Shown here: positions 29,251 through 57,942 of the stretch, piece by piece
Layout of the letters: every line of letters begins with the position of its first letter
Numbering within the stretch: the first letter of the stretch is position 1
DNA from: Devosia aurantiaca
GTDB lineage: Bacteria; Pseudomonadota; Alphaproteobacteria; Rhizobiales; Devosiaceae
NCBI RefSeq assembly: GCF_011058215.1
Contig: NZ_JAALFG010000001.1
Span: 253,001-317,000 of the forward strand
Length of the DNA: 64,000 nucleotides
Direction of reading: 5' to 3'
Translations under genes and position numbers: made by a program
The notes under the pieces: model-generated
The model's database searches: none
Seen by the model: only the letters and a program-made list of their open reading frames with translations
What the model was told of the DNA's origin: nothing

Positions 29251-30730
29251 TGTCACCCACCGCTCCACTGATGTCCGAGGACTGAATTCTAGGACCATGG
29301 GCCCGCACCGCTGCTTGCCCGCTGAACTTGACGAGCATGTCGCCCCTGCCGAGCAGCTTCTCTGCGCCGCCGTCATCAAGGATGATCCGGGATTCGGAGC
29401 CCTTTTGAACTGTTAGTGCCACCCTGCTCGGAACGTTCGAACGCAGCATTCCAGGGAAGGTGGCCGCCTCCGGTCGCTGCGTGGCCAGCACGAGATGGAT
29501 GCCCGCGGAACGAGCTTTGGACGCCAAGCGGATCAAAGGCACTTCGATCTCATCCGACTGCATGAACAAGTCGCCAAGCTCGTCGATCACCGCCACTATG
29601 CGCTTCAGGTCAGAACCTGCCTCGCGCGCCTCGGCAAGATCCCGTACGCCCAGTTCGGTGAACTCCTCCTGGCGTCGGTTCATCTCTTTGATGAGATCGT
29701 TCAAGGCAGCAAGAGTATCGCCCACCGAAGTGACGATCTCACCAGTGATAAGATTCTTGAGCGACTTGTACGGAGCGAATTCGACCGCCTTGGGATCGAC
29801 GAGCAACAGGTCCGGGACATCTCGCCCGGAAAGCAATGACAGCAGGATGCCGTGGAGGGTCATGCTCTTGCCACTGCCGGTGGTTCCGCCAAGGAAAAGA
29901 TGCGGAGCAACTGCAAGATCGATGAGCATCGGCGCGCCCAGGACGTCGGTTCCGAGGCAAACGGGCAAACTCATGCCCTCTGCTGCCTTGGAACGCAGCG
30001 ATGGCTCCAAGTCGCCCCAATCAATCGTTCGCCACTGACTGGCAGGACGCGGGATATCAACCCATACCTGGCGCTCGACGGCAGCACTCGAGACAGTGGC
30101 AGCACGATCCCCGAGGCCAAGTCCGAAGGCGAGTTTGTCCTCACCCCTCTTTAGCCTGCTCAGATCATCGAGCCCGGTGAGCTGGAAGGTGAAGCGGGTC
30201 AATCTAGGCCCCTGCGCGGTCTGTATCAAACGGCCGTCGACACCCATTTCGGCCATGATTCCTGCTACCTGATCCCCCAATTCGCCGGCGAGTTCATCGT
30301 TCTCGGGGCCCTCGGTGAACATGTCCTGCAGCAAGTAGCGGTTGAAATCTGACCCAGGCGTCCATTCCGCAGCCAGTGTCGCGATTCCGCGACGAACGTG
30401 CCGCTGAAGCGCTGCATGGAATGCCGCTTCATCGGCGAAAAGATCCTTCCCTTCGTAAACGGAAATCATGGCTCGATAGACGTCCGAGTAATCGTCCTCG
30501 CCTTGTCTGGTCTCGCCGATCAACTGCTCAGGATGCATCTGAATGCCGTTCTCCTGAACGGGAAGCACAGGATAGGCCTCCGGATCCGGCGCGTTCGACA
30601 TCTGCAGCGACCGGGCAAGAGCCAGTCTGGCGATCGTCCAGTAGTCCAAATCCGGACGCTGCCAGCCTTCCTCCATGATCTGCTGGAGGATATTCTTGTC
30701 CTTTTCGGTAAGCTGAACACGCGCAACCAT
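29243..30730 (-). CDS. FtsK/HerA-type translocase with DndE-like N-terminal domain
   Basis: 495 residues. The N-terminal ~100 residues resemble DndE: YWTIARLALARSLQMSN, then EQLIGETRQGEDDYSDVYRA, comparable to ARLALSLSLR and GDTLFGQDEADLTLW in the separate DndE. After a linker comes an FtsK/SpoIIIE motor: PHLFLGGTTGSGKSMTLHGI (Walker A, about residue 285), PDLLLVDPKAVEF, IVAVIDELGDLFM (Walker B) and GIHLVLATQRP. A DNA-recognition domain fused to a translocase suggests a protein that follows DNA and reads sulphur marks. The start overlaps the DndD-like stop (TGATG). Confidence 0.75.
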   Translation of the reverse strand: MVARVQLTEKDKNILQQIMEEGWQRPDLDYWTIARLALARSLQMSNAPDPEAYPVLPVQENGIQMHPEQLIGETRQGEDDYSDVYRAMISVYEGKDLFADEAAFHAALQRHVRRGIATLAAEWTPGSDFNRYLLQDMFTEGPENDELAGELGDQVAGIMAEMGVDGRLIQTAQGPRLTRFTFQLTGLDDLSRLKRGEDKLAFGLGLGDRAATVSSAAVERQVWVDIPRPASQWRTIDWGDLEPSLRSKAAEGMSLPVCLGTDVLGAPMLIDLAVAPHLFLGGTTGSGKSMTLHGILLSLLSGRDVPDLLLVDPKAVEFAPYKSLKNLITGEIVTSVGDTLAALNDLIKEMNRRQEEFTELGVRDLAEAREAGSDLKRIVAVIDELGDLFMQSDEIEVPLIRLASKARSAGIHLVLATQRPEAATFPGMLRSNVPSRVALTVQKGSESRIILDDGGAEKLLGRGDMLVKFSGQAAVRAHGPRIQSSDISGAVGDNA

Positions 30731-32748
30731 CAGACCAACGATCCTTCTTCGACAGTGGCGGCGTCACCGCTGGTATTGAGAATGCGGAAGTGGGTCGCAA
30801 CCTTTTGGGACAGCAATTTCAGCTTGCGGTCGTCGATCTCGGCGTTCGTAGGCAGGATTATCACCTGCTTGGACAGGACCGGGTAGTAGGCCCGAAGCAG
30901 ATGCTCCTGGTTTTCGCGGTCGATACGACCGAGCGGCGTATCGATGATGACGGGAACATCACTGTCCGCGCTGTCCTTCATCGCCCATAGCAAGGCGGTC
31001 GCGGCAAGTTGCTTCATGCCACTCGATAAGCTCGTCCGGCCGATCGGCTTGCCGCTCTTCTCGTAGAACGTCAGCACGTAGCCCTCATCGATGCCGATGC
31101 GGTCGATCAGGGGATGTTGGATGATGCGCTTGAACCTGTCGTTCAGCATCGTTTCCAGTTCGGCCCTGGTCACGATCTTGATACGCTCGCTGATCTCGTT
31201 GAGCGCTTTCACGGCCTTTAGGACGAAGCGGCTGTCCTTGGCCGCCTGCGAGACCTGATCCTGAGACTCCTCGAGGCGCTTGACCTCCGCTGCCCAGCGC
31301 TGCTCGTCCGCGACGGCTTCGGCCGCTCGCACCGTCCACTGCCCCTTCAGCTGGTTCTGCTTGGCGATGCCTTCTTCCAGCTCCACGACCTTGTTAGACA
31401 CCTGACGAAACTCTTCGGCGTTGCCATTTGCACCCACCTCGAGATTGAACAGATTGCGCTTGATCTCCTGTACCGAGTTTCCCAGACGATAGGCTTCGAT
31501 CAACGCCCGACCTCGAGTTGATCGCAAGCCGCCACCCGCGATTACCCAGGTCTCGAAGCGGCCAACGAGTCGCTCGAGCACCGCGGGGCTGACGGCAGCG
31601 AACAGTCCGCTGCCGTTTTCAACGCGCAGAAGGCCGTTGATGCGCTCCGAAAGAAAATCGGAAAGCCTGGCGCCTTCGCTGTCCGACAAGGCCGGACAAC
31701 CCTCGGCGATCCAACCCTTCAACCGGCTCGATACGTTGTTGGCAAACTTGGCCTCGGTGCTGCCGGCGTGCGACATCCGAGCCACGATCTCCTGCAGAGC
31801 CTTCTGCACGAGACCGAGATTGGCAAGGATCGGAACGTCCTTCGGCAGCTCGCGTACAATCTGGTCTATAAGCTTGCTCAGCTTGTTGTTCTCGGAGCGT
31901 AATTGCTCCTCGAGCAGTTTGCGTTGCGCTTCGGACGCGCCCGAGCTCAGATTGGCCCGGCGGATCTGGACGCGTCGCAGTTCGACGCTGTCGATGCTCA
32001 GAAGCGACTCTATCTCCTCGAGGGCTTCCCGGGCCTCCAACTGCAAGGTCTTGGCTTTGGCAAGGCTCGCTTGCGCTTCGTCCAGAGCTTTCCGTAGACT
32101 TGATTCCAGGCCGCTTCTCTTGCGATCGCCCGAGAGTGCCACCAGTTCGCGAGCCAGGTCCTCTAGAAAGGTGATTTGCAGAAGACGATTGAAGTCTGCC
32201 TGGTAAGAGCCCGAGCTCTCCGCCAAGCTCTTGATGTCCTCGCCATCGAAGAAGAAAAAGCGCACGAGGCGCGATGGAATGGTGTCTTCCAAGATCGCTT
32301 GAGCCGGTTGCGCCGTCTTCCGATCGCTGCCGCGCTCAACGATGATCCCGGTGGTGTATTCCTCGGCCTCCACGGTCCACCATCGTGTGGCAGTGACTGT
32401 CTCGCCCACGTTGTCCAACCACGAGGCGACGATTTGAGCAGTCACGGGCTCGCCAAGCGCGGAGGCGCGCCGCCTGGCTTCGCGATTGATCAATCCCGTC
32501 CACTGCGAACCATCGCCGAGAACGTATTGCGGACCGGAAAGCGGTGCGGGTGGGACGCCGACCATGCGGAATTCGGTTTGCTCGGCCCCCGTGAACAACA
32601 GCTTCATAGCGTTGAGGAAGCTGGTCTTCCCCATGCCGTTGCGACCCCAGATCAGGACGATGTTCTTGTCGGGGGTGGTTGCCGAGAAGTCGAACGTCGC
32701 ATCCTTGTATGCAAAGATGTTCTCGAGCCTAACTTTGAGAAGCTTCAT
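30730..32748 (-). CDS. Second DndD-like SMC-type ATPase
   Basis: 672 residues. Walker A IWGRNGMGKTSFLNAMKLL near residue 37. RFFFFDGEDIKSLAES parallels LLFDGEQIRRLAQ in DndD. A long coiled coil covers about 200-540. The C-terminal catalytic half has TSLSSGMKQLAATALLWAM (signature) and VPVIIDTPLGRIDRENQEHL (Walker B), the IDTPLGR(I/L)D stretch being shared with DndD. It is therefore a DndD paralogue rather than a generic SMC. It overlaps the small upstream gene by 20 bp. With the following DndE-FtsK gene it forms a second D/E pair, probably the effector or restriction half. Confidence 0.75.
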   Translation of the reverse strand: MKLLKVRLENIFAYKDATFDFSATTPDKNIVLIWGRNGMGKTSFLNAMKLLFTGAEQTEFRMVGVPPAPLSGPQYVLGDGSQWTGLINREARRRASALGEPVTAQIVASWLDNVGETVTATRWWTVEAEEYTTGIIVERGSDRKTAQPAQAILEDTIPSRLVRFFFFDGEDIKSLAESSGSYQADFNRLLQITFLEDLARELVALSGDRKRSGLESSLRKALDEAQASLAKAKTLQLEAREALEEIESLLSIDSVELRRVQIRRANLSSGASEAQRKLLEEQLRSENNKLSKLIDQIVRELPKDVPILANLGLVQKALQEIVARMSHAGSTEAKFANNVSSRLKGWIAEGCPALSDSEGARLSDFLSERINGLLRVENGSGLFAAVSPAVLERLVGRFETWVIAGGGLRSTRGRALIEAYRLGNSVQEIKRNLFNLEVGANGNAEEFRQVSNKVVELEEGIAKQNQLKGQWTVRAAEAVADEQRWAAEVKRLEESQDQVSQAAKDSRFVLKAVKALNEISERIKIVTRAELETMLNDRFKRIIQHPLIDRIGIDEGYVLTFYEKSGKPIGRTSLSSGMKQLAATALLWAMKDSADSDVPVIIDTPLGRIDRENQEHLLRAYYPVLSKQVIILPTNAEIDDRKLKLLSQKVATHFRILNTSGDAATVEEGSLV

Positions 32749-33549: not shown

Positions 33550-35774
33550 GCTGCCTGCCTCGGGAAATAACCCTTCTCCACGACCGTTTCGCCCAAGCCA
33601 CCTGACTCGGGTCGATAGACCAGGTGGTGCTCGGATCCGATGCGGTGGAAAATGCGGTCGTAGTAGCGCCCGTAGACCTCCTCGGGTTGCGAGAGGAGAA
33701 TGGTCTGGGAGTCCCGGCGAACGAAGTAATCGAGGACGCGCTCCCGATGCGCCGTGTCGAGACGCCCCAACGGCGTGTCGATCACCAATGGCAGGGAGCG
33801 CCCACCGAGACCGCTCACCGCGGCGATCAGCGCCATCGCGAAAATCTGGTTCTCACCGGCGGACGCGTCGGTGTCCCGCAAGTTTCTACCCGAAGGGTCG
33901 AGAAGCGACACGTCCCCGTCATCTGCAATGGCAACCGTTTCGACGACGCCCTTATGCGCCAAGCTGCGATAGGCCGCCGTCAAAGCCTTGGCCAGCTCGT
34001 CGTAGTGCTTGGGCATAGCCACAGCGATTGAGCCCTGCAGGGAGGCGATCGCCATGCGTGCCGCATCTGCACCAGTGCCTCCGTGCCCGCTTGCCCGGCG
34101 CATGCCTCGCCGCCTGGAAAGTTCCGCCTGGAGAGGCTCGACCTGCGCTTGCTGCTTGCCAGCCACTTGATCGAGTCGACGACGTCGCCCTTCAAGATCA
34201 GAAATGCGTTGACTCGTGTCCTCAAGCTCCAGCACCAGCTCGGTACGGTTCTTCTCGGCTCGATCACGTTGCTCTTCCTGCCGATCCATGCGCGCTATCG
34301 CAGCGGCGATCTCAGCTATGCTACCAGTCATCCGGTCGATCTCGCCACGTGCTGAAGCCCTCGACCCTTCTATCAGCTCGTGCACCCTGCCCGCGTCATG
34401 ACCCTTGAGATAAAGATGCAGTGGGGCGATCGATCCAGCACCGGAGGCACTGACAGACCTCTGCCAAGCCTCTCGTGTCCGTCGAGCCAGGTCCGCCAGA
34501 ACATCTTTCGGCAGAGGCGGTTCGGTTCTCTCCAGAGCGGAGATCAATTCCCGAAGCATTCTGGCGTCGTCGCCCTTGGTCAACGTCTTCGAACGAGCCG
34601 CTCCATCAAGAGCCAGCTCCACTTCGTCCAGCAATGCACCTGGTATCAGGAGAAACGGAAGCAACCTGACGCCAGCGACGAGAAGCTCGTGCCTTGCCGC
34701 CTGCAGGTCCGCTTCCAGCTTCTTGCGCAACTCTAGATCCTGATGACGCTCGAGATAAGTGCCATCGCCAAAGGACCCGATAGACCTCACGATCTCGTCG
34801 CGGCGCCGGCGCAACGGCTCCAACTCGGCTTCCACGCCCTCCAGCTCGTTACGAGTGGCCGTCAACTCGGCGTCCAATGCATCGATCTGGGACGACAGCA
34901 TCGATTCCGCGCCATCAGCGATGACCTCCTTGCCGCGATCACGAGCGTAGTCCGAAAGGTCTTCGAGCAGGGCCTTTATGGAAGCGACCCCCAACGCGCT
35001 CTCAAGGCCGAAACGAACCTGTTCGCCGAGCTCCCTCTGCGCGAGCCGGCGAATCTGCTCGCCATCGAACAGCAGGAACGGCAGCATGCTGACCGGGGCA
35101 ACGCGCCTCTCGATCTCGTAGAAGGCGAAATCCGCACTCGGAACGTCAGCGGGCGGGCTGAGAATGTGACGATCATCGCCGATCCGCAGAACCAGTTCTT
35201 CGTCCTCCTCGACGAACGAACCGTCATCGCCGAAGTACCAGTGCCGCTCGATCTCGAATGGACCGTCGTCGCCATCCAGCTCGATGGTCACGGACATGTC
35301 GCGATCGCCACGTTCAAATGCCTGTCGGTGCATGGCGCGCTCGATGGTCTGGTTATAGTCCGAGCGCCTCGGGCCGGGCGCTCCGCCCTCCGCACCGAGG
35401 CGCGACCGGTCAAGGTAGGCGCGGATGCCGTATATGCCCAATGCCAGCGCCTCGAGGATGCTGGTCTTGCCATTGCCGTTGTTGCCGCCGATCAGCGCAA
35501 CCGGACGATCGACACCGGTGGCAAGATCGAAGTCGGCATGGTCGAATGCCTTCCAGTTACGCAGAAGAACCTTCTTGAACCTGAAGGGGCGAGGCGTTCC
35601 TGCGGCTCTCGGGGTCCACGCGAGCAAAGACCAGTCCACCGGGGCGGAGAAGATCTCATCGAAGCGGTTGAACAGGCGGCGACGGTTCCCGCCCGCACCA
35701 TGCAAATGGCGCGCCGATACCAGCAGATCGAGCCAAGGACCAATTCCGCCCTCCGATGAGCCTTGAGCGCTCAT
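33546..35774 (-). CDS. dndD: DNA sulphur modification ATPase DndD
   Basis: 742 residues, near the usual DndD length. Walker A LIGGNNGNGKTSILEALALG near residue 95. MLPFLLFDGEQIRRLAQREL is a DndD hallmark. The coiled-coil arms run about 270-560. The C-terminal half holds SAGENQIFAMALIAAV and RSLPLVIDTPLGRLDTAHRE. It is an SMC-like ATPase thought to open or kink DNA during phosphorothioate insertion. An N-terminal ~50 residues before the ATPase core is an addition. Its start overlaps dndC (ATGA) and its stop overlaps dndE, consistent with a stoichiometric complex. Confidence 0.92.
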   Translation of the reverse strand: MSAQGSSEGGIGPWLDLLVSARHLHGAGGNRRRLFNRFDEIFSAPVDWSLLAWTPRAAGTPRPFRFKKVLLRNWKAFDHADFDLATGVDRPVALIGGNNGNGKTSILEALALGIYGIRAYLDRSRLGAEGGAPGPRRSDYNQTIERAMHRQAFERGDRDMSVTIELDGDDGPFEIERHWYFGDDGSFVEEDEELVLRIGDDRHILSPPADVPSADFAFYEIERRVAPVSMLPFLLFDGEQIRRLAQRELGEQVRFGLESALGVASIKALLEDLSDYARDRGKEVIADGAESMLSSQIDALDAELTATRNELEGVEAELEPLRRRRDEIVRSIGSFGDGTYLERHQDLELRKKLEADLQAARHELLVAGVRLLPFLLIPGALLDEVELALDGAARSKTLTKGDDARMLRELISALERTEPPLPKDVLADLARRTREAWQRSVSASGAGSIAPLHLYLKGHDAGRVHELIEGSRASARGEIDRMTGSIAEIAAAIARMDRQEEQRDRAEKNRTELVLELEDTSQRISDLEGRRRRLDQVAGKQQAQVEPLQAELSRRRGMRRASGHGGTGADAARMAIASLQGSIAVAMPKHYDELAKALTAAYRSLAHKGVVETVAIADDGDVSLLDPSGRNLRDTDASAGENQIFAMALIAAVSGLGGRSLPLVIDTPLGRLDTAHRERVLDYFVRRDSQTILLSQPEEVYGRYYDRIFHRIGSEHHLVYRPESGGLGETVVEKGYFPRQAA

Positions 35775-36900
35775 GCCGGTTCCAGCTTCGACATGGAGAT
35801 CGTGTCCTCCGCCCAGATCCTGTGAATGGCGTCGATCTCCTCATCGGAGATTAGCGGCAGATCGACCTCGGCCTGAACCGCGCGAAGCCGATCCAGTATC
35901 TGCCGGCGAGCCTCCAACGTGAACGGGCCGGGGATGAGACGTCCTTCTCCAACGAAATTCAGAGTGCCGTTGCGTCGGGTGGCCATGCGCATCGCCCCAT
36001 CCTCGCGAATGGCCTTCAGCCAATCGCGGAATTCGAGCAGAGGCTCGAGGTCGCCGTAGCCTGCCTCGATGAAGGATTCGGCGCTCTTGTCCTTCTCAAC
36101 GACCGTGCAGGTCCAGCATCCGAACCGCGAGGATGCGGTGCCACAGGATGGGGCTTCGGACTTGTCCGTCACCAACGGGCATTCGCCGCCACCTGCGTTG
36201 CGATACATCGTCACCAGCTCACGGTGAGTGCCTCCCCACGGCGGCGACGACTGCAGCAGGGTCTGCCACACCTCATCGGTGGTCAGGTCGACGATCGGCT
36301 TGTAGACGAAGCAGTTCTGCAGGCTGTTGTGAGGGTTCAGCCGCTGTCCGTTGTCGTAACGGGCAACGCTGCGGCGGCGCTGCGTCGACTCTGCACTTCG
36401 CACGCCCAGTAGCAGGATGGCCTCACCCGACGCATGGACCTGCGTCTTGATGTAGGTCGTGGTTGGAGCGATCTTCATGCGATCAGTGCACCAACGGAAG
36501 ACGCGACTTGGCGAGGGATAGCCACGACCGACCAGGTTCACCCAGAACGTCTGCTCCACGTCGGGGACCGTCTTCGCCACCACCACCGGAAGTCTGAGCG
36601 GTTCGATGGCGGAACGCATCCGGTCGAGCACCATCTCCAGATGATTGGCGATGACGGGGACTCGACGAGGGTGTCATTGGCTACCACGTGCACGGCGCGC
36701 TGACGCTTGCGAGGAGGAAGCGAGAGCAGCATCTCAAAGACCAGTTGCGCGAGGAGAGTGCTGTCCTTGCCGCCGGAGAAGCCCAGGATCCAGGGCGTCG
36801 CATGGGGCTGGAGGTACTCTTCCCGCAAATCGGCCAGGATCGCTCGAAGGCGACCGCCCAACTGGTCGACCTGTTCGTCATTGGCGAGGATCGCTGTCAT
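35771..36900 (-). CDS. dndC: DNA sulphur modification protein DndC (frameshift)
   Basis: About 376 residues after repair of one frameshift. PAPS-reductase-like ATP pyrophosphatase that receives sulphur from DndA through an Fe-S cluster. The PP-loop is GFSGGKDSTLLAQL near residue 40. The Cys set typical of DndC is RFGCWTCTVVEKDKS near residue 240, with further Cys in GGECPLVTDKSEAPSCG. The two halves meet near 36655 at a run of C: one more C would join NDTLVESP to VIANHLEMVLDRMR. The gene is 1130 bp, one short of a codon multiple. Its ATG overlaps the dndA stop (ATGA). Confidence 0.9.
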
Positions 36901-38334: not shown

Positions 38335-38649
38335 AAGCGGGACTGTGAACCGTTCGATTGTATTCTACAAGCCAAAATGTACGAAATGTCCCAACTTTTT
38401 GCCTGCCTTGGATCTTATCATGCGCGGAAAAAAACGTTGATACAGAGCAATTTATCGCAAGTGCCTAAGGGTGGCACACTGCTTGACGCAGCCATCCATG
38501 CTGTCGACGGCAGTCTTCCGCACTTGAAACGTGGCGGGAGCGTTCCGATGTGATCGTCTCCAGCCAAGCTGGTCCTCTTCTCGCATGCCGTTCGCCGCAT
38601 GTCGCAATCGCAGCCCGCATGAACGCGAGGCGATGTTGGAGAGGACATT
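38335..38649. promoter_or_regulatory. Divergent promoter region between dnd and protease operons
   Basis: 315 bp with no gene, between two divergent operons. On the minus strand TACAAT (38357-38362) is a good -10 for the HTH-dnd operon, with TTCGTA 17 bp upstream as a weak -35. That -35 lies inside AAATGT-ACG-AAATGT (38375-38389), a tandem hexamer that could be the XRE operator. The plus-strand protease gene has GGAGAGG six bases before its ATG; its promoter is not obvious. Confidence 0.5.
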
Positions 38650-40569
38650 ATGGCCCCCTTCCTGATCGAAGACGATGACGAGTCGGATGACCCGAAGCTC
38701 GACACTGAGCAGTCGCCGCTCGCTTTGGCCGTCCAGAACGGACGTGCCCTTCCTGCTGTTATGCTCAAGCGTGCGCTGAGTTGGAAGTTCAAACTGTTCG
38801 CCAAGGAACCAGGCATTTGCGTTCTGATCCGCGTGCGCTCCAGCGATTGGATCGGCCCATTCGTTTGGGCTGCCAGAACATTAGGAAGCTGGCCCCATGT
38901 CATTGAAGGCGATGCTGCAGCGCGGGCCAAGGACAAGCCAGTGCGCGATGCGCTCGACAGACTTGCAGCAGGCGACAGAGTCCTGGCGATCTACCCCATG
39001 TCCCTTCCAGTCCCACGCGAATTGAGGATTGCTTCCGACATCGATCTCGAAATCGTCAAGGTCTCGGCGTCTGACGTCTCCAAGGCGATTTACCTCGCGA
39101 CCGGATCGCGCGCTCGCGGAGTTTCTAAAGCGATTCCGGCCGACCTCGACCTGCAGCAGGCTCTGCACGCCATTCGGCTAGGATCTACACCAGCGCTCTG
39201 CATCCGTCGACTTTCGGTCACGTTACCGGCAGAAGCTGGCAATGGGCCAGTTATCGACGCGCCACCCCTCGATGCGCTGCACGGTTACGGGGAGGCAATG
39301 GTCTGGGCCAATCGACTGGTGAGCGACCTCGAACGCTGGCGAGCCGGACAGCTCGATTTCGAATCCATTCAAAAAAACGCGGTCCTTGCAGGCTTGCCAG
39401 GGACCGGCAAGTCCACCTTCGTTCGCAGCCTCTCCAAATCCAGCGGGCTTCCGCTCGTAACCAGCTCCTTGAGCCAGCTGTTCGGCACATCTGCTGGTTA
39501 TCTCGATAGCATCATCAAGGCGATCGATGCGCTGTTCCTCGAAGCGAAATCGAAAAGGAACTGCATCCTCTTCATCGATGAGCTCGATGCCTTTCCAAAC
39601 CGTACGACTCTCGACAGCAACCGTGGATCGTGGTGGACACCAGTGGTCAACCATATGCTGACCATCCTGGACAGTTCCTTGTCCGACGCCAGCAAAGGCT
39701 TGGTCATTGTTGGTGCGACGAACCATCCCCACAAACTTGATAGCGCTTTGTTGCGCCCCGGAAGGCTCGACCGGATTCTTTGGATAGACCTTCCGGACGA
39801 ACAGGCGCTTGACGGCATCTTCCGGCAGCACCTCGGGACGGAACTTGCCGGCGAAGACCTGAGTGCAGTCGCGCTGGCGGCGGTCGGATCCACCGGGGCG
39901 ATGGCCGCTGGCGCCGTCAAGGCTGCGCGTGGTCGCGCTCGCAGCGAAGGCCGCGCAATGATCATCGATGACCTAATGGATGAGGTCTGTCCTCCCGCGA
40001 AAATGTCAGACGCCGACCACTGGATCTCATGCGTTCACGAGAGTGGTCATGCGGTAGCATGCGTTCTTCTTGGCGTTGCGAGGCTGAAGAGCGTCGCAGT
40101 CATCGCTGGACAGGATGGCGTTGGCGGCAGAACCGTTTCGCAGCCACTGGCCAACGCCATCCTCGACGAGAACCGCAATCGAGATCGAGTGATTCAATTG
40201 CTGGCTGGCCGGGCCGCAGAAGAGGTGATCCTCGGGACAGTCTCCGGAGGCGCCGGCGGTGGTCAGGACAGCGACTTGCACAAGGCGAGCAAGCTCCTGG
40301 CATCCGCGCACCTGAGCCTTGGGCTTCGGGGAACCTTGATGCATTTTGCCGATCCCGAGGATGCGCTGGCGGTCGCGCGACGTTCTCCACACCTGATTGC
40401 AAGCATCGAAGGCGACCTCGTGCAGCTCTACGACCGAGCCAAGGGCCTCATCCGGTCCGAGACAGGTGTCGTCCTGTCTTTGGCAGAAAGGCTCAAGAAG
40501 AAGCGTGTGGTGATGGGGCCAGAGGTGGAAGTTCTCGTGGAATCTGCACGCAGGGATAGGAGCGAGTAG
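38650..40569 (+). CDS. Membrane-less FtsH-like AAA+/M41 metalloprotease A
   Basis: 639 residues. There is no transmembrane helix; about 200 N-terminal residues form an unassigned domain (LALAVQNGRALPAVMLKRAL, then DVSKAIYLATGSRARGVSKA). AAA+ core: GLPGTGKSTFVRSL (about residue 250), CILFIDELDAF (about 305), SRH NHPHKLDSALLRPGRLDRIL. Peptidase M41: VHESGHAVACVLLG (HExxH near 462-466) and GGGQDSDLHKASKLL (third zinc ligand region). Classical FtsH is anchored in the membrane with two helices; this one should be cytosolic. It diverges from dnd and is followed by a second such gene, suggesting a mixed ring that degrades specific proteins, perhaps during infection. Confidence 0.85.
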   Translation: MAPFLIEDDDESDDPKLDTEQSPLALAVQNGRALPAVMLKRALSWKFKLFAKEPGICVLIRVRSSDWIGPFVWAARTLGSWPHVIEGDAAARAKDKPVRDALDRLAAGDRVLAIYPMSLPVPRELRIASDIDLEIVKVSASDVSKAIYLATGSRARGVSKAIPADLDLQQALHAIRLGSTPALCIRRLSVTLPAEAGNGPVIDAPPLDALHGYGEAMVWANRLVSDLERWRAGQLDFESIQKNAVLAGLPGTGKSTFVRSLSKSSGLPLVTSSLSQLFGTSAGYLDSIIKAIDALFLEAKSKRNCILFIDELDAFPNRTTLDSNRGSWWTPVVNHMLTILDSSLSDASKGLVIVGATNHPHKLDSALLRPGRLDRILWIDLPDEQALDGIFRQHLGTELAGEDLSAVALAAVGSTGAMAAGAVKAARGRARSEGRAMIIDDLMDEVCPPAKMSDADHWISCVHESGHAVACVLLGVARLKSVAVIAGQDGVGGRTVSQPLANAILDENRNRDRVIQLLAGRAAEEVILGTVSGGAGGGQDSDLHKASKLLASAHLSLGLRGTLMHFADPEDALAVARRSPHLIASIEGDLVQLYDRAKGLIRSETGVVLSLAERLKKKRVVMGPEVEVLVESARRDRSE

Positions 40570-40570
40570 A

Positions 40571-40771
40571 ATGAGAGAGGAGATGCTTTCGATTCTCGAA
40601 CGCTTGGCGGCCGTACATGAAAACCTCGGCGAAGAGGCATTTCATCGTGCGTGTCATAAGGTTCGTCACGCCATCGCTCAGGTCGTGCTGGTGGAGGCGG
40701 AGAGACTGGCCGAAGTGAAGGACGCTCGGCGGAAGAGAGCCGTTAACCATAACAAGCAGATTGGTACCTAA
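40571..40771 (+). CDS. Small protein following protease A
   Basis: 66 residues, starting one base after the protease A stop with AGGAG eight bases upstream, so clearly in the same transcript. Helical and charged: MREEMLSILERLAAVHENLG, then EEAFHRACHKVRHAIAQVVL. It is of unknown family. Size and position suit an adaptor or inhibitor of the protease. A 130-bp gap follows. Confidence 0.55.
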   Translation: MREEMLSILERLAAVHENLGEEAFHRACHKVRHAIAQVVLVEAERLAEVKDARRKRAVNHNKQIGT

Positions 40772-40901
40772 TCTACCATTTGGTGCTTTCTGTACCATCG
40801 CTTTCCGCGTATATCGGGATCAGCCGTAAATGCCGGCAGACCTTCAACGCATGCATGTCGAACGACACGCGTGGCGAACCTAGCCAGTCACAGGACTATC
40901 G

Positions 40902-41558
40902 ATGTTCTCCACTCAATCCTATCGATTCGATTTTCAAGGCCATGCGGTCGGTCTGCATGGCGATGCACGGGCCGAACGCTTGTTTCATGAGCACAAAAAG
41001 CTTCTCCTGGCCGCGAGGAACTTCGTCATCGCGCATTCAAGTATGATGCTGCTCGGCGATGATCCACTGGTGGACCACCTGCTCACAAGCAACGGCTTCG
41101 ACACCACTGATGCTGCGGTCGTTCGCATCGGGTTGGCAGGGCGGTCGATCACAGCGATTGCCATTCCGACACGTTTGTGGCGCGATCCGGAGGCGAAGGC
41201 GCGCTTCTTCGAGGTGAAGCAGCAGGCGGGGCTCGATCGTACCTGCGTTCTTCTTGTTCCCCAAAGGTGGCTGAAGGCAAGTGTTCGCGGCTCGGTGGCT
41301 CGATCGATTGCATTCGCCTCGAGGACAAGGATCACGCGCAAGCAGCATGCCGAGGTTCTCGATCACCTCGGCAAGAACAAGGTGTCTACAATCGTGGAGA
41401 CCGCTAGTGCTATCACGGGCCATTCCGACCCGCTTTCGGTGGTTCTGGCGATGTCGGCCACTGGTCACGTGCATATCGATCGCACAAGCGTACTGCGGGG
41501 GACCACGGTTGTGTGGCTGCCGGCAGACATTCGCCCTAGCGCGGAGTTCACACGATGA
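40902..41558 (+). CDS. Unknown protein between the two M41 proteases
   Basis: 218 residues. Not recognised. The N-terminus reads YRFDFQGHAVGLHGDARAER, then FHEHKKLLLAARNFVIAHSS and MLLGDDPLVDHLL. The middle has FFEVKQQAGLDRTCVLLVPQ, which could be a strand-helix-strand with an E-V-K pattern reminiscent of nuclease folds, but this is weak. The C-terminus is rich in Thr/Ser with VVWLPADIRPS. Its stop overlaps the start of protease B by four bases (ATGA), so it is made together with that protein. Possible roles are substrate adaptor or nuclease; neither is proven. Confidence 0.55.
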   Translation: MFSTQSYRFDFQGHAVGLHGDARAERLFHEHKKLLLAARNFVIAHSSMMLLGDDPLVDHLLTSNGFDTTDAAVVRIGLAGRSITAIAIPTRLWRDPEAKARFFEVKQQAGLDRTCVLLVPQRWLKASVRGSVARSIAFASRTRITRKQHAEVLDHLGKNKVSTIVETASAITGHSDPLSVVLAMSATGHVHIDRTSVLRGTTVVWLPADIRPSAEFTR

Positions 41559-43494
41559 GCCGGCTTGCTGCACTTAAGGAGAATGAAGCGTCCCCTGCCG
41601 ACGATCTGCTGACACGCGTCCGCAAAGCCATGGGTCTCGCCTTGATCGAGAGGGCGCTCCCTGCCTCGACGGCGCAGAAGTTGTTAGGGACCTCGCCGAT
41701 CTGCGTCCTGCTCAAAGCACCAGGAGCAGAGCATGTGCGCATGCTGGTGGAGGCGATGAGGGAAAAATTCTCCGGCTCCGCCGTCGTGCACGACCTCCTG
41801 GCGACAGATGCGGTCCAGCTCCTCACCCGCTCTCTTTTGCGCAAGAAGCATGCGATCGCCATCGTCGAGGGCAGCGAGGACCTTCCCCAGAGCTTCGTCG
41901 TTCTGGTGGACGAAATAATCGACGTGCCCCTTCACGATGCCCAGGTCATCATCGACACCGCCAAACTGCTGGGCAGGAAATCTCTGCGATTGCCCCAAGG
42001 CTTTCGTTCTCATCCCAGCGCGGAACTGATGTGCCGCGCGATCGCGGCAGGGCTGGCCACCCGAAGGCTGAAGCAGATCCTGATGCGTTCAAGCGTTCTT
42101 TCCTCGATCTCGCACGATCCAGCCGTGCCCGTCCTCGAGGCCTGCGTGGAGTTCGGCGAGGCGCGAGATTGGGGACTCGACGTTGTTTCCGACTACCGCG
42201 GTTGGAAGGACGGCAGCGTCTCTGCGGAAGACATCGATGCTGCACTGTTGCTGATCAGCCCCCGGGGCATGGCAAGACCTTTTTCGCGCAAGTTCTGGCG
42301 AAGGCACTGGATGCCAAACTGATCGAACTGACCATTGGATCGATCTTTGCGGGCGATGGACATTTGGGCCCAGTCATAAAGGAACTGCGCCAGACCTTCG
42401 CACTGGCTGCTCGGTCCTCTCCCTGCGTTCTCCTGCTCGACGAACTGGACTCATTTTCAAGACGGGACGCCGCTGACCACAACGCTTCCTTTAATACCAG
42501 CCTGATCAATGAGCTGCTCACCCTTCTGGACGGAGCAACTCGTCGTTCGCCTGGCCTTGTGATCATTGGCGCGACAAACCGGCCGGACGCTATTGACCCT
42601 GCAGTTCTTCGTCCCGGGCGCTTCTCCACCCAGATCGTCCTGCCGCTACCTGATGCTGATGGGATTGAACACATCTTGCGCACCCACTTGCGGGGCGATC
42701 TGGCCAGGAACGATCTCGATGAGGTGGTGCGCATTGGCCACGGCATGACATCGGCCGAATTGATGCATGTGGTCCGTACCGCAAGGCACGCAGCACGTAA
42801 GGCCGGCAGAGAACTCAAGGTCGGTGACCTGGAAGACGCAGCGCTCAGCGGGCGGTCAATTGATGGCGCGAGCCGGAGGAGGGTAGCACTGCACGAGGCG
42901 GGTCATGCCGTGTGCGCCACCTTGCTTCCCGAGGCGCCGATAGTGATGGGCATGACGCTATTGGCAAAGGGGACGGCACTGGCGAGAGTCAGTCTGCTTG
43001 AGCATACTGAGTCAAATACGCGCGCGCATGCCGAAGCCAAGATCGTTGTCCAACTTGCCGGGCGAGCTGCTGAAGCACTCTTCTACGATGGCGATCCTAG
43101 CGCTGGCGCTGCCAATGACCTCAAGCAAGCTACGAGCCTACTTCTGCGGATGCGTCTGCAATGGGGCATGTACGGCACGCTTATACACCATTCCGATATC
43201 GACCAGGCCCTAGCCCTGGACGACCGTCTCCGCTCTGAGATGGAGGCAGAACTCCAGCGCCTCTTCGATACCGCAGTGGACATCCTGGGGCGCCACCGTT
43301 CGCAACTGGAGGCGCTGTCCGAAGCGCTCCTGCACAAACACGTCCTGACGGGTGACGAGGTTCGTCATATCGTCCATCAACCTTTCGAGGCAGGCACGGT
43401 CAACCACAACCGTGACGAAGAATGGCCACTTGGTACGGTATTGTTCGAGACCGTACCGTACCGCGCCTTGCCAGCGAGGGGATCAGCGCCATGA
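41555..43494 (+). CDS. Membrane-less FtsH-like AAA+/M41 metalloprotease B (frameshift)
   Basis: About 646 residues after one repair near 42258 (1940 bp, one short). The break falls in the C/G run just before Walker A: PPGHGKTFFAQVLAKALDA. Then VLLLDELDSFSRRD, SRH NRPDAIDPAVLRPGRFSTQI, the M41 motif LHEAGHAVCATLLPE (about residue 445) and AANDLKQATSLLLRM, the classic FtsH third-ligand segment. No membrane helix is seen; the N-terminal ~220 residues include VFGEARDWGLD-like sequence and a TGS-less linker. It is a paralogue of protease A but closer to FtsH. ATGA overlaps link it to both neighbours. Confidence 0.8.
43432..43460 (+). promoter_or_regulatory. Inverted-repeat operator before second kfrA-like gene
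   Basis: GGTACGGT (43432-43439) and ACCGTACC (43450-43457) are perfect inverted arms with a 10-bp spacer, and CGTACCGTA (43452-43460) is shared with the site before the other kfrA-like gene. It lies within the last codons of protease B, 31 bp before the KfrA start. A sequence serving as both coding and operator DNA suggests autoregulation from inside the operon. Confidence 0.6.
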
Positions 43495-44102
43495 GCAACC
43501 AAATCGCGACGTTCGAACGGGTTCGAGACGTGGTTGAAACCTTGCGGAAGCGCAATGTGGCTCCCACGGCCGACCGTGTGATCGCAATGGTCGGCGGAGG
43601 AAGCAAGTCCACAGTTCTTTCTCACCTCAAGCGTTTGCGAGATGCTCCGATGGACGACGACGCCATTCCGCCATCCGTAATGGACGCGGCCCGAGTTGCC
43701 TTGAACGAGGTATATCTCGCGGGACGGTCGGCCGAAGCCGATACTGTCCGGGCGGCGACAGAACGATTGTCTCAGGCCGTACGTGAGCAGGACGCGCAGA
43801 TCGAGGAACTGGCGGGCTTGAACGAGCGCCTCGAGTGGTCCAAGGCCCAACTGATCAAGCAGCTCAAAGCCGTCAAAGCCGATCACGAAGCCGCTGTTGA
43901 GCGTGCCGAAGCCTTGGCAAAAGAAAACGACGGCCTGCGTTCCGAACTCGCAGTCGAGCGGCAGAACTCGCAAACGAGGGTGCAAGACACCCTGGCCAGG
44001 GTCGAGCGGTTGCTCACGCCCTCGAGCACGGGGCCAGACGTGGCAAGACCTGATCGGAAGACCTTGGGGCTGCCCGCAAAGCTTCAGGAGCGTCGAGGTT
44101 GA
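43491..44102 (+). CDS. KfrA-like coiled-coil DNA-binding protein, last gene of protease operon
   Basis: 203 residues. KfrA_N domain: TFERVRDVVETLRKRNVAPT, then VIAMVGGGSKSTVLSHLKRL. A long coiled coil follows from about residue 85 (LSQAVREQDAQIEELAGLNE, then KQLKAVKADHEAAVERAEAL). The ATG overlaps the protease B stop (ATGA). KfrA proteins bind near their own promoters and condense element DNA. Here it could control the protease genes or the whole island. Hairpin-forming sequence without a T run follows at 44115-44210. Confidence 0.75.
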   Translation: MSNQIATFERVRDVVETLRKRNVAPTADRVIAMVGGGSKSTVLSHLKRLRDAPMDDDAIPPSVMDAARVALNEVYLAGRSAEADTVRAATERLSQAVREQDAQIEELAGLNERLEWSKAQLIKQLKAVKADHEAAVERAEALAKENDGLRSELAVERQNSQTRVQDTLARVERLLTPSSTGPDVARPDRKTLGLPAKLQERRG

Positions 44103-49181: not shown

Positions 49182-50842
49182 ATGGGTGAAGCTGGCATAA
49201 ACACGCTTTGGAAGCGACCGGAGAACGGCACTTATTATTTCCGGAAAGGTGTTCCGGAAAGGCTCCGGCATCTGATCGGCAAGGCGATGATGCAGGTCTC
49301 GCTGCGCACCAAGGACTTGGCTGTGGCCAAGTCCAAGCATAAGACCGTCGCTGCCGAGGTTGCTACGCAGTGGGCGAAGCTGCAGCAAGTTGAATTCAAG
49401 CCAATCCCAACAACTGCCGACGACCGGCGAACAGTGTCGCTCAGCAGCAAAGAGGTCGCGGCCTTGGCAGGCGAGCTCTACAGAGCGCTGCTGGACAAGC
49501 ATAAGCACGACGCTGGGCCTGCAAAAGAGTGGGAAGCCAAGCTCAAAAAGCTGCAGAACGCCTTGCCGATCACCGACAGATTGCCGGAAGCGGCCAAATG
49601 GACCTTTGGTGGGCCATCTGCGATCCGGCACAACGCCATCGTCTTCTGTTACGAAGACGTTGAAGCTCTCTTGGCCAAGAAAGGCATCGCATTGTCGATG
49701 CCGGACCACCACCGACTCTGCGCCCACGCCGCAAAGGCTCTCGCCCAAGCCTACGAAGTGCTCATCAGACGAGCCAACGGCGACTGGTCTGCGGATCCGC
49801 GAGAAAGCCGATTCCCGCCACCAATCTCTCATACTGGATGGCGCAAGTGGTACGCGGCCTACTGCAAGGCGAAGCTCCCAGAACCTTCATCGCGCAAGCG
49901 TCAGGAAGGCGTCCTCAATGCATTCTTCAACTTCCTTGGCCATGAGATTCCGGAAAGGGTGACCGAGGAGGATGCCAACAGGTGGGTGGAGGCACGGCTC
50001 GAGCTGGTCTCTCGGGCGACCGTTATCAAAGCGGATCTGGCCCATACCAGAAGCTTTTTACCTGGGCCTATGCGAAGCAGCGATTGCCATCGAATCCTTT
50101 TGGCAGGGTCGTGGTCGATCATGTGGACAAGGAAGAGGTCGACGACGAGACTGTCGTGCCGACCATCAAGAAACGCGAGTACTACCTCGGCGAAGCCCGT
50201 AATATTCTTGAGGCAACGCTCGACCCTGTGAAGGGAAAGGTCAGTCTGCACAGCAAGGCCGCCCGGAGGTGGGTGCCATGGTTGTGCGCCTATTCCGGTG
50301 CGCGTGTCGGTGAGATCACTCAGCTGCGCAAAAGCGATGTGTACCAGGCAAAATCTCAGGATGAGACGGAGTTGATCTGGGTGATCATGATCACTCCGGA
50401 AGCCGGGCACGTGAAGGACCACAAGAAGCGCGAAGTCGCCATCCATCCGCACCTGATCGAGCAGGGATTTTTGAAGTTCGCAGAGGCCTCCGAGACCGAG
50501 ACCCTGTTCTTCGACCCGAGCAAGCGTCGTGGAGGGAAGCGAGCGAACCCACAAAGCGCAAAGGCTGGCGAGCGCTTGGCGAAATGGATCAGGAAAGATC
50601 TCAAGATCACCGATCCTGAGATTTCTCCTAATCATGCATGGCGACATCGCTTCCGAAGCCTGCTGATGAACCGTGTGCATCCACAGGTGCTGGACGGTAT
50701 CGATGGTCATGCGCCGGCCTCAGAAGGCCAGAAGTACGGCAGAGTCTGGCCGGAGGTAAGCCTCGCCGCTGTATCCCTTATCGAGCCTTACCGCTTTGAC
50801 GGACGAGAGCTTCTCCACAGGCCGGATGATACTCCCAGCTGA
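49182..50842 (+). CDS. Tyrosine recombinase 1 of a related pair (frameshift)
   Basis: About 553 residues after one repair near 50058 (1661 bp, one short). The N-terminal domain begins NGTYYFRKGVPERLRHLIGK (DUF6538-like 'arm' start). The core shows YSGARVGEITQL (first Arg), HAWRHRFRSL (HxxR), IDGHAPASEG and QKYGRVW with the Tyr nucleophile. It is clearly homologous to the integrase at 52.4-54.0 kb but points the other way. Start at 49182 (MGEAGINTLW). Its own att sites are not visible, so it may be an older or captured copy. Confidence 0.8.
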
Positions 50843-50858
50843 AATTGCAGCTCTGGAT

Positions 50859-51578
50859 TTAAGGAAGATGGAAATCGTCGAGCTCCGGTGGAGAGACTGG
50901 AGGGTACTCATCCGGCGTCTCGCTCAGAGTTCCAGTTATTACAAGAGCCTTGATCTGGATCAGGCGCCAGAGCGGAAGACTGGGCAGGAAGTCGTCGAGC
51001 GCTTCTTCCAATTGCCATGACTCAGTGATGACGCGCCCTTCCTGTTCGAAGATGTCTGCCGGCACACGGAAGGTCTTGCCATACCGCCTGTAGTGGGCAA
51101 GGAACTCGCGGTACTCATCGAGCTTGGCTTGCACGTCCTGCGCCATCTTGCGCTTCCGAAATGCCTGTTCACGCCTGACCAAGGCCTCGCGCGAGAGCCC
51201 GTTCACCCTGGGCGCCAAGTGGCAAACCTCTTGCGATTTCCCAAAATCGGGAACAAATTTCACACCGTATTTTGCGCGCGTCCACGTCAGGATTCCGTCG
51301 CGCTCCTCGACTTCCACCAAACCCCAGAACTGCGCCCAACGCAAAAGATCGGCCACTTCTACAGGCTCGTACCGCTCGGGATAAAAGGCCAAACCGTGTT
51401 CTAACGCTGACTTCGCGTCCAGGCGATGGGCACCATCGAACAACCGGTCCAGCCGACGATCCCAAATATGGTACAAATGGGATTTGAGCACGCCCAGCCG
51501 TCCTCCATTGCGATACCTGTTCTCCATTTCCGTGATTTCGTTTTCAGTCACCCACCAGGTCAAATGTCTCTTAGGCAT
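50859..51578 (-). CDS. Unknown paralogue A, integrase-linked
   Basis: 239 residues. A paralogue of the next gene: DRRLDRLFDGAHRLDAKSAL aligns with DRDLDRLFERTGRIDARQAV, ADLLRWAQFWGLVEVEERDG with AELLRWAEQQGIVERIEVDG, and WQLEEALDDFLPSLPLWRLI with WQLEEALDGLLAQLPLYRLI. It is helical, with no known domain and no membrane segment. It overlaps the upstream gene by 8 bp and so belongs to the integrase operon reading inward from the tRNA. A role as recombination directionality factor or element maintenance factor is possible but unproven. It converges with integrase 1, with 16 bp between stops. Confidence 0.5.
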   Translation of the reverse strand: MPKRHLTWWVTENEITEMENRYRNGGRLGVLKSHLYHIWDRRLDRLFDGAHRLDAKSALEHGLAFYPERYEPVEVADLLRWAQFWGLVEVEERDGILTWTRAKYGVKFVPDFGKSQEVCHLAPRVNGLSREALVRREQAFRKRKMAQDVQAKLDEYREFLAHYRRYGKTFRVPADIFEQEGRVITESWQLEEALDDFLPSLPLWRLIQIKALVITGTLSETPDEYPPVSPPELDDFHLP

Positions 51579-52368
51579 GCTCGTTCTCGCTAACCGGTGA
51601 TGGACAAGACGGGATCGGGAGACGCCGCTGCGGACCTAGTGGCAGTCCGGCACCCAACCAGTGGTAGATGCTTCTGGAGTTACTGATCCTCTTGGAACAA
51701 AGATCAGAGGTTGCGGTAGTTGATGCATGGCGACTGACGGCATCGACAATCTGGATCAGGCGGTAAAGCGGTAGCTGTGCCAGCAGGCCATCGAGCGCCT
51801 CTTCCAATTGCCACGCACAGTCGCTGGTCGAACCATTGCGGTCGAAAACCTCCTGTACCACACGCGTCGACCCGCTCATTCTGCTGATTAGATTGCACAG
51901 CCTATCGAGGTGTCGGTCGGACTGTTTCTGCAACTTGCGCGCTCTTAGATCGGCTTCCTGCGAGACCAGAGCATCGATCGAGGGTACCTCACTCAGCGGT
52001 TGCACGGTTCGAATATCCAGCGAAAGCGAGAGGCGGGGAATGAAGGTCACACCATGACGAAGTCGTTGCCAGGTGTTTTCACCGTCTACTTCGATGCGCT
52101 CGACGATCCCCTGCTGCTCCGCCCAGCGCAATAGTTCAGCTGCCATCGCCGGTTTGTAAGTGGGTTGGCCGATGGACAAACTGCGTTGGACTGCCTGTCT
52201 CGCATCGATACGGCCCGTGCGCTCGAACAAGCGGTCCAAATCTCGGTCAGAGCCGTAGAAGTCGCTTGGATTATAGGGCCAGACCGAGCGAATTCGACTG
52301 ATCCAGTAGGCAGCGTTGAACAGCCAAACGTTCGCAACACTGACGCCATCGCAAGGCCGAGATCTCAT
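51571..52368 (-). CDS. Unknown paralogue B, integrase-linked
   Basis: 265 residues from the ATG at 52368, which overlaps the integrase stop (ATGA). An in-frame start at 52431 would lie wholly within the integrase gene and is less likely. It is homologous over most of its length to the next gene (see that entry) but with a longer C-terminus (CSKRISNSRSIYHWLGAGLP). Helical; not recognised. Expression would follow integrase expression directly. Confidence 0.5.
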   Translation of the reverse strand: MRSRPCDGVSVANVWLFNAAYWISRIRSVWPYNPSDFYGSDRDLDRLFERTGRIDARQAVQRSLSIGQPTYKPAMAAELLRWAEQQGIVERIEVDGENTWQRLRHGVTFIPRLSLSLDIRTVQPLSEVPSIDALVSQEADLRARKLQKQSDRHLDRLCNLISRMSGSTRVVQEVFDRNGSTSDCAWQLEEALDGLLAQLPLYRLIQIVDAVSRHASTTATSDLCSKRISNSRSIYHWLGAGLPLGPQRRLPIPSCPSPVSENEHA

Positions 52369-53973: not shown

Positions 53974-53976
53974 TTT

Positions 53977-53995
53977 GTACCACTCCTTTGTACCA
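53977..53995. repeat. Right-end GTACCA pair, putative integrase arm site
   Basis: GTACCA at 53977 and 53990, 13 bp apart, the same motif, spacing and strand as the pair at 2972-2990. It lies between the integrase start (53973) and attR. The segment CTTTGTACCA itself is repeated after CTC, and the second copy continues into AAAGG, giving partial dyad symmetry. Confidence 0.55.
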
Positions 53996-54056
53996 AAGGC
54001 GGGCTCAAAAGTCTCGGATTTGCTGGGTTCCTAGCGTTTCTGCCGGTCTCGAACAG

Positions 54057-54076
54057 AAGTGGCGGAGAGAGAGGGA
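54057..54076. repeat. attR: 20-bp repeat within the tRNA-Ser 3' end
   Basis: Identical to 2887-2906. It covers three bases beyond the CCA plus the 3' acceptor strand and the first bases of the T arm. The tRNA is complete here, so the island kept it functional by supplying the 3' end. Confidence 0.88.
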
Positions 54077-54149
54077 TTCGAACCCCCGATGGAGTTGCCC
54101 CCATGCCGCATTTCGAGTGCGGTGCATTCAACCGCTCTGCCATCTCTCC
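54060..54149 (-). tRNA. tRNA-Ser (anticodon CGA)
   Basis: A 90-nt tRNA with the long variable arm of serine tRNAs. The acceptor stem GGAGAGA pairs with TCTCTCC, followed by discriminator G and an encoded CCA. The anticodon stem CCGCA/TGCGG frames the loop CTCGAAA, anticodon CGA, which reads UCG. The T loop is TTCGAAT. The 3' end serves as the island attachment site. Confidence 0.95.
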
Positions 54150-54314
54150 GCGAGATCGAGGGCGCCCGGAGGCGCTGCTGGTCGATACGGGGCGGCTTAT
54201 CGCATAAGGGTCGAACGGCTGCAACTGTCTTGTCTCACGTTTTCGTTTGCGCGGCACCAAACGGTGTCTGGTGCGTTTGCCGCGCGAGAACATCCGTAAA
54301 ACAGGGAGAAGACA

Positions 54315-55058: not shown

Positions 55059-55280
55059 CCTGTCATCAATTGGCTTGACTCTGCGGGCTCCTGCCCCGAT
55101 AAGCCACACGATCTGCGCTCCGGTTCTGCCGGCGCGCCGATTTTGTTTGAAAACGCTGCTCGAGGCTGCCGGCTGAATTTTTTGGCCCACAATTCGAAAA
55201 GCCCGCGGATCTGGCACGAAAGCCGCGGCGCCACAGAGCGCGACAGATAGGGACCGGTTGGACCACCAATCGGCAATTGC

Positions 55281-55823: not shown

Positions 55824-55837
55824 GAGGAACTTAGACC

Positions 55838-57935: not shown

Positions 57936-57942
57936 TCGTCTC

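Follow-up and report, generated by a model that had tools for sequence, protein, structure and literature searches.

Why does the alphaproteobacterium Devosia aurantiaca carry, within one operon, two proteases that resemble FtsH? The operon lies in a stretch of 64,000 nucleotides of contig NZ_JAALFG010000001.1 (assembly GCF_011058215.1, positions 253,001 to 317,000 of the forward strand), the whole of which is called the window here; dnd genes and an XRE-type regulator gene on the minus strand are followed on the plus strand by the genes for a first protease (P1), a 66-amino acid protein (S66), a 218-amino acid protein (U218), a second protease (P2) and a KfrA-like protein (Table 1). This operon had been proposed in a first-pass annotation of the window, and the 66-amino acid, 218-amino acid and KfrA genes are indeed present together with P1 and P2. 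We conclude that the unit is real and little-known, and that it is most likely a transposon-derived module of an AAA+ protease and a nuclease-dead TnsA, which now resides in a defence-rich island. The identities of its parts are fairly firm, and the mechanism proposed below is a reasoned guess.

The 218-amino acid gene, left as an unknown in the first-pass annotation, which overlooked the related modules beside tnsABC-tniQ, encodes a TnsA-like protein. When a model of U218 (9 sequences; predicted local distance difference test (pLDDT) 81.2) was compared by Foldseek with 350,542 PDB chains, three matches only had E < 0.001, and all were Tn7 TnsA (1f1z, 1.5e-4; 1t0f, 3.1e-4 and 4.4e-4); the top VIA row was 9bw1_M, a TnsA-bearing chain of the TnsABCD transpososome (Z 8.2, root-mean-square deviation (rmsd) 4.8, 188 residues). 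The TnsA match covers nearly the whole length of U218, and the model shows the TnsA fold arrangement, namely a PD-(D/E)XK fold with a C-terminal winged helix. By hhalign, the U218 profile gave 87.7% over 174 columns against nine tns-linked TnsA proteins, whereas 40 shuffled controls did not exceed 0.2% and eight other profiles stayed at or below 2.7%. When both groups were aligned jointly, the columns that we take to be catalytic, after Tn7 TnsA, hold the Glu in 17 of 17 TnsA rows and the Lys in 16 of 17, and neither residue occurs in any of the 36 U218-type rows (35 of them distinct, loci L046 and L082 being the same; L058, L070, L085 and one L052 fragment were left out). Because the catalytic Glu and Lys are absent from all 36 rows, U218 is probably a nuclease-dead paralogue of TnsA. 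U218 had no NCBIfam or PADLOC match, and tblastn against 72,556 plasmids returned no match at 1e-5; relatives recognized by profile are present on the plasmids of L010 and L012.

By synteny, relatives of the module are recurrently linked to tnsA-tnsB-tnsC-tniQ. Homologues of the 218-amino acid gene occur in 24 of 136 Devosiaceae genomes, the host included, and 20 Devosiaceae loci containing one were mapped with a simple custom gene caller, in whose maps start sites and small genes are approximate. The XRE gene is divergent in 16 of these loci, co-directional in 1 and missing from 3; DUF6634 (PF20339) is found in 13, and TnsA or TnsB was called in 13, although in L052 the call is an upstream fragment only, a separate search placing TnsB 3.4 kb downstream. 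In the good cases, the complete order is the XRE gene, then one or two dead TnsA, DUF6634, the protease, a gene of the 66-amino acid type (where present), TnsA, TnsB and TnsC, and in the rhizobial relatives L066, L068, L070 and L083 the next gene after TnsC is TniQ. A dead TnsA stands beside a normal TnsA in many loci. The identity of TnsB is firm as far as profile comparison goes: its Pfam signal (rve), like that of TnsA, lies below the curated cut-off, and the assignment rests on the match to solved TnsB of CRISPR-associated transposons (CASTs; 3.4e-96 to 9e-88, with 1.8e-31 for Tn7 TnsB). TnsC matches TniB, and three of the four TnsA proteins scanned gave sub-threshold Tn7_TnsA-like_N matches. 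In a scan of named genomes, 38 of 80 loci were mapped (L066-L099, L102, L108, L134 and L136), the other 42 being presumed to be ordinary FtsH from organism and match range; TnsA or TnsB was called in 7 of the 34 loci L066-L099, that of L072 lying upstream on the other strand.

Counting over the Devosiaceae genomes gave a similar picture, with cut-offs (1e-185, 1e-85 and 1e-50) that were set after the lists had been inspected. TnsB, located by the separate search, lies within 10 kb of 30 of the 46 high-scoring (P1-like) proteases, compared with 0.35 under random placement, and always on the same strand (30 of 30). The nearest TnsB is downstream in 29 of these 30; in the remaining one (genome G030), the nearest is the upstream fragment of L052. 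In the reverse direction, 37 of 52 TnsB lie near a protease, a count that is biased because the TnsB profile was built from loci beside proteases.

The proteases themselves have an FtsH-like core without a membrane anchor, as both sequence and model show. P1 occupies one intact frame, with Pfam matches to AAA (6.8e-26) and M41 (4.3e-12), and is laid out as an N-terminal extension of about 200 residues (approximately 22-204, inferred to be degenerate AAA-like), an active AAA domain (approximately 206-448) and an M41 domain with HESGH (approximately 449-639); by Pfam, the AAA and M41 domains with the HEXGH motif of the FtsH family are likewise present in the second P2 piece. The FtsH model TIGR01241 of NCBIfam gave 130 bits for P1 and 166 bits for the L046 homologue of P2, far from its cut-off of 600. 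The N-terminal transmembrane anchor of the FtsH family, with its periplasmic domain, is missing from both proteases, as the first-pass annotation had claimed: the highest 19-residue hydropathy within the first 230 residues is 1.01 in P1 and 1.37 in the N-terminal piece of P2, versus 2.29 in the FtsH of the same genome, and among 49 protease relatives a value of 1.6 is reached by 10 and 1.9 by none. The AlphaFold model of P1 (20 sequences; pLDDT 82.9) found its best fold matches in FtsH structures, such as 3kds (Z 28.6, residues 202-632).

The claim of unusual N-terminal domains was also supported; that of P1 was modelled as an alpha/beta domain. It is probably a degenerate AAA domain. In comparisons with the P1 model, some rows of the tandem-AAA proteins NVL, Rix7 and Cdc48 align from about residue 16-26 to about 449 (rmsd 11-13), and in several rows (rmsd 11-14) the residues from about 22 onward pair with the first AAA domain; by hhalign, the N-domain profile gave 55.7-62.5% against the AAA domain of the family itself, over its second half, and 40 column-shuffled controls did not exceed 1.4%. 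The first 20 residues of P1, a possible docking tail, are acidic and have low model confidence; they are acidic in many relatives too. Besides FtsH, proteases of the P1/P2 family are present in 60 of the 136 Devosiaceae genomes (111 proteases at E < 1e-85); this patchy occurrence differs from the broad, unlinked distribution of a housekeeping gene. In PADLOC 2.0.0, only the AAA segment of the proteases matches (IetA/TRIP13 models), with no full-length match. In L090, L092, L094, L095, L097, L098 and L099, the protease is naturally split into an AAA part and a separate, adjoining gene of about 250 amino acids, which in L095, where it was checked, encodes an M41 peptidase. On Bosea and Paracoccus plasmids (L010 and L013), the gene immediately preceding the protease is annotated as a GIY-YIG nuclease; genes of similar size in L076 and L080 had no Pfam match.

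The two proteases of the operon appear to travel together. In a tree of 56 rows, the first proteases of L046, L048 and L050 group with window P1 (100/99), and their second proteases with window P2 (100/100); L058, L082, L091, L096, L102, L108, L136, naturally split AAA/M41 loci and pieces below 400 amino acids were dropped from the tree. The P1 set lies inside an eight-row clade (100/97) whose other members are L049, L065 and, linked to tns, L059 and L062, and the tree as a whole needs at least eight changes of the tns label, in which 'no tns' means that none was called in the stretch examined (a stretch that for L053 stops at the contig end). The pair of P1 and P2 is found in 4 of 136 genomes, namely the host (G000), G034, G041 and G058, and in this tns-free branch the sequences show P1 and P2 to be inherited as a pair. 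From this topology, it seems that one branch shed tns and acquired a second protease, conserved to the same degree, and because the P1 and P2 clades of these four genomes match, a mixed P1/P2 ring is plausible. The closest named genome with a homologous operon is that of Devosia sediminis (L082); L046 and L082 are one and the same locus, and L057 and L058 are near-copies.

P2 needs separate comment, as the first-pass annotation had described two complete proteases, which is true of P1, with its single 639-amino acid frame, and not of P2, whose two open reading frames (41555-42322 and a frame ending at 43494) meet at the Walker A motif in a C/G run. The P2 homologue of L046 is a single frame of 644 amino acids, and tblastn with its residues 236-619 aligns to 42238-43407 at 46% identity. 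Judged by these sequences, an assembly error is the likely cause of the break, because other genes of the window (proB, nadD and dndC) are broken alike: of 13 reference genes of G044 (L146) with a match in 54-64 kb, 4 run through more than one frame in this error-rich assembly, proB (1.1e-110) and nadD among them. Over the regions 54000-64000, 35771-36900 and 52380-53973, the genes split relative to G044 are proB, nadD, two acetyltransferase-like genes and one tyrosine-recombinase gene, and dndC is split as well. A programmed frameshift in P2 is disfavoured, the L046 frame being continuous and nearby genes being broken too. The host genome comprises 3.69 Mb in six contigs at a completeness of 90.6%, and frame breaks in it should not be read as biology unless checked.

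Taken together, these observations lead us to propose, tentatively and short of thinking it probable, that the unit is a transposase-free derivative of a Tn7-like accessory module, in which a cytosolic AAA+ protease guided by a dead TnsA acts on transposase-like complexes. Its parts, comprising the XRE regulator, the nuclease-dead TnsA paralogue, small helpers and the cytosolic AAA+/M41 proteases, would come from alphaproteobacterial Tn7-like transposons. P1 and P2 would assemble into hexameric unfoldase-protease rings, either mixed or separate for each of the two. The dead TnsA would be the adaptor, whose DNA- or transposase-binding surfaces bring DNA complexes of the TnsA/TnsB type to the ring, and the ring would unfold and degrade what is delivered. 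XRE would repress the operon, and KfrA would bind DNA in an accessory role. In its transposon-borne form, the machine would dismantle or limit the transpososome, as has been suggested of the host's ClpX for certain CRISPR-associated transposases of the Tn7-like type; in the island form without tns, the same machine would be aimed at incoming mobile-element complexes. The more specific version, that a dismantling protease and its dead-TnsA bait were freed from the transposon, duplicated to an obligate P1/P2 pair and kept in defence islands as immunity that recognizes and destroys the transposase-DNA complexes of incoming Tn7-like or similar elements, appears rather unlikely to us. The Mu transpososome is dismantled by ClpX. 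For CASTs, ClpX has been hypothesized to take apart the post-transposition complex (PMC12326709, PMC10761935), and the former paper reports that ClpX raised integration by wild-type PseCAST TnsB 4.0-fold on average in human cells, that an evolved TnsB no longer needs ClpX, and that loss of clpX in E. coli reduced phage propagation about 200-fold in a CAST-dependent selection (PMC12326709).

Several observations weigh against this proposal. The structural match of U218 to TnsA is modest (TM-score 0.37-0.43 and rmsd 6.6-8.3 in Foldseek), and the VIA Z of unrelated single-domain rows reaches 7-8; none of nine U218-type proteins has a Pfam match, the TnsA-like N-terminal domain included, and neither the U218 profile nor the TnsA profile gave a significant PDB sequence match, fold comparison alone giving one. 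The catalytic Asp is kept in 24 of 36 U218-type rows (TnsA, 17 of 17), which leaves residual metal binding possible. There is no TnsB within 10 kb of 16 of the 46 P1-like proteases, including window P1 and a third copy in the host; within these 16, G058:C18 lies at a contig end and G127 has a TnsB 22.9 kb away on the other strand. Of the 65 lower-scoring proteases, 58 likewise have no TnsB within 10 kb, and the TnsB is on the same strand in just 1 of the 7 that do. A TnsB search of the host genome found no match (TnsC and TniQ lay outside this search), so the substrate in the window is guessed, and other lineages have neither tns nor a TnsA-like gene in the stretches examined. Given the TnsB-free proteases and the lineages without tns, the job of the protease may therefore be wider than transposition. 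P2 is frame-broken here, and if the break is real, no mixed ring is made. Finally, dnd/ssp genes adjoin 3 of 111 proteases, which somewhat favours a role in defence.

That role is the possible, if doubtful, alternative that the operon is an anti-phage or anti-plasmid system in which the TnsA-like protein and KfrA would detect DNA that is foreign, modified or damaged, and the ring would destroy proteins of the invader or, abortively, of the host, perhaps together with phosphorothioate systems. The tns-free pairs do share their islands with genes known or proposed to act in defence (DndA, DndC, DndD or PbeC, and AriA/AriB-like genes in the window), the 10 neighbours scanned at L046, L048 and L050 include several of defence type, and two further copies, the third of the host and that of G043 (L054), lie 1.1 kb and 3.1 kb from SspH, respectively. 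Islands, however, gather many unrelated genes, PADLOC recognizes neither protease, the IetA/TRIP13 likeness being confined to the AAA part, and phosphorothioate genes stand beside 3 of 111 proteases versus 37 of 111 for TnsB. That the divergent XRE gene is found in 16 of 20 mapped loci, and that the downstream tns genes run in the same direction and might be under joint control, would also suit a mobile-element switch of the ImmA/ImmR type, in which the main substrate of the protease is the XRE repressor, whose removal induces the operon or the element. ImmA is a metalloprotease of a different kind. We regard such a switch as unlikely: L046, L047 and L060 lack the XRE gene and keep the other parts, no shared operator was found, and the dead TnsA and the two proteases would be left unexplained.

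Decay and housekeeping fit the locus less well. If P2 is a true pseudogene, as its frame broken at Walker A would suggest, the operon could be the remnant of a decaying island that no longer works, and L047 retains U218 and KfrA only, beside genes that we named transposase-like; yet the P2 motifs, like P1, S66, U218 and KfrA, are intact, P2 has a single frame in L046, and the splitting of 4 of the 13 reference genes, and of dndC, affects the surroundings as well, which makes this explanation quite improbable. Ordinary accessory protein quality control with no tie to mobile DNA would account for the FtsH-like core and for proteases in 60 of 136 family genomes, but we hold it very improbable in view of a distribution that is patchy, multi-copy and transposon-linked, the missing membrane anchor and the linked TnsA-like partner.

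The arrangement of the operon is given in Table 1. The XRE gene lies between dndA and P1, divergent from the operon and with dndA just downstream of it on the same strand; the XRE product may have a role for both. A scan of other intergenic regions did not detect the palindrome of the divergent region again, nor any conserved XRE operator. ATGA couplings noted earlier are present between the 218-amino acid gene and P2 (41555-41558) and between P2 and KfrA (43491-43494), the latter when the inner KfrA start is used, from which a 184-amino acid homologue of L046 aligns. Homologues of S66 directly follow P1-type proteases in L046/L082, L048, L049, L059 and L062, and homologues of KfrA follow P2 in L046 and U218 in L047.

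Table 1. Features of the protease operon and of the region upstream of it (window coordinates)
Feature	Position	Strand	Basis or remark
XRE-type helix-turn-helix (HTH) regulator, 93 amino acids	38053..38334	minus	Pfam HTH_31 1.9e-9, HTH_3 1.2e-7
Divergent intergenic region, 315 bp	38335..38649		One TTGTA-TTC-TACAA palindrome, candidate XRE operator
P1, soluble AAA+/M41 protease, 639 amino acids	38650..40569	plus	Pfam, model, hydropathy
S66, small protein of 66 amino acids, candidate P1 adaptor	40571..40771	plus	Homologues directly 3' of P1-type proteases
U218, TnsA-like, PD-(D/E)XK-like fold and C-terminal winged helix, without catalytic Glu and Lys	40902..41558	plus	Model, Foldseek, VIA, hhalign, catalytic columns
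P2 N-terminal piece, N-domain to Walker A	41555..42322	plus	Homology stops near 42259; tblastn with residues 1-255 of L046 P2
P2 frame break, C5G4 run within Walker A	42259..42267	plus	
P2 C-terminal piece, AAA and M41 with HEAGH, another frame	42238..43494	plus	Pfam M41 1.8e-28, AAA 2.1e-28
KfrA-like DNA-binding protein, about 203 amino acids from inner ATG	43491..44102	plus	Pfam KfrA_N (PF11740) 1.7e-12

The surroundings of the operon are rich in defence-type genes. The dnd genes of the window, on the minus strand, encode DndA/SspA, DndC and DndD/PbeC; beside them, at 27206-32748, PADLOC profiles match a PbeC/DndD-type ATPase, a gene resembling SspH in its C-terminal part and an AriA/AriB-like pair (AriB weakly, 0.0035). 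Across the 136 genomes, SspC was detected in 10, SspH in 10 (E < 1e-30, several weak) and DndC in 3, and a protease lies within 20 kb of 2 of 10 SspC loci and 1 of 4 DndC hits. The three proteases adjoining dnd/ssp genes are window P1 (2.0 kb to DndC), the third protease of the host and that of G043 (L054). The third host protease is a single-copy form outside the window (G000 C1:357257-359134; L007 257-2161) and sits at the end of a second phosphorothioate cluster comprising SspA, SspB, an SspC-SspD fusion, SspF, SspG and SspH, the last in more than one piece. BLAST of the window genes at 27-38 kb against the mapped loci matched the SspH/HerA-like gene in L007 and L054 and DndA in L007, and nothing more. 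These BLAST matches and the three adjoining proteases do not amount to a fixed dnd link of the module, and a functional tie is conceivable. The co-occurrence with dnd or other modification genes that the first-pass annotation had proposed to check exists in those three cases and probably reflects shared islands. The 10 scanned neighbours of the other three pairs include several defence-type genes, with a different set at each locus: multiubiquitin-E2, E1-JAB and PD-Lambda-2_B-like genes at L046, a QueC-type gene at L048 and a C5 methyltransferase at L050. On the other side of the operon, several tyrosine-recombinase-like genes lie beside tRNA-Ser (cga) at 49182-54149, and at the matching site of G044 (L049), beside the same recombinases and the L21-L27 genes, there is a relative of the module with a single protease; the site near tRNA-Ser (cga) looks like an integration hot spot.

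The first-pass impression of an unfamiliar unit agrees with the open-licence literature, in which, among the matches listed, nothing like the module was found and no title concerned Tn7-like elements with an M41 protease or a similar DUF6634/dead-TnsA module. In the same literature, for Tn7-like elements together with FtsH, FtsH appears only where HflK is named in a legend. A term search of the main text of a survey of Tn7-like cargo (PMC8649781) gave no protease, peptidase or FtsH, and in a survey of target selectors (PMC10293859), the passages containing 'protease' are about reagents. How transposons of the Tn7 family shed their very stable end complex and curb their own activity is an open point that host ClpX answers in part for some CRISPR-associated members. 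With a protease and a dead subunit of the transposase encoded beside tnsABC, these matters become directly testable. The module could supply a self-contained disassembly partner for genome-writing tools based on Tn7-like transposases, and the tns-free two-protease branch would exemplify transposon parts that have been repurposed.

In comparison with known systems, P1 and P2 share with FtsH the AAA and M41 domains, the HEXGH zinc motif and the best fold matches, but they have no N-terminal membrane segment, probably carrying a degenerate AAA-like N-domain instead, and their distribution is patchy and mobile. U218 resembles Tn7 TnsA nearly end to end in structure and matches tns-linked TnsA by profile, whereas the catalytic Glu and Lys (36 of 36 rows) and any Pfam match are missing. 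With the Tn7-like core of TnsABC-TniQ, the relatives of the module share a location within 10 kb of TnsB (30 of 46), and the window version has no tns genes. The KfrA protein of the window belongs with the KfrA_N proteins by its match to PF11740, and is here encoded by the last gene of the operon. The proposed function resembles that of ClpX, an AAA+ unfoldase that acts on transpososomes, as the module proteases would; ClpX, however, is encoded by the host and acts together with ClpP, a separate protein, whereas the module would combine unfoldase and protease in one protein encoded by the element itself, with a dead transposase subunit as the candidate adaptor.

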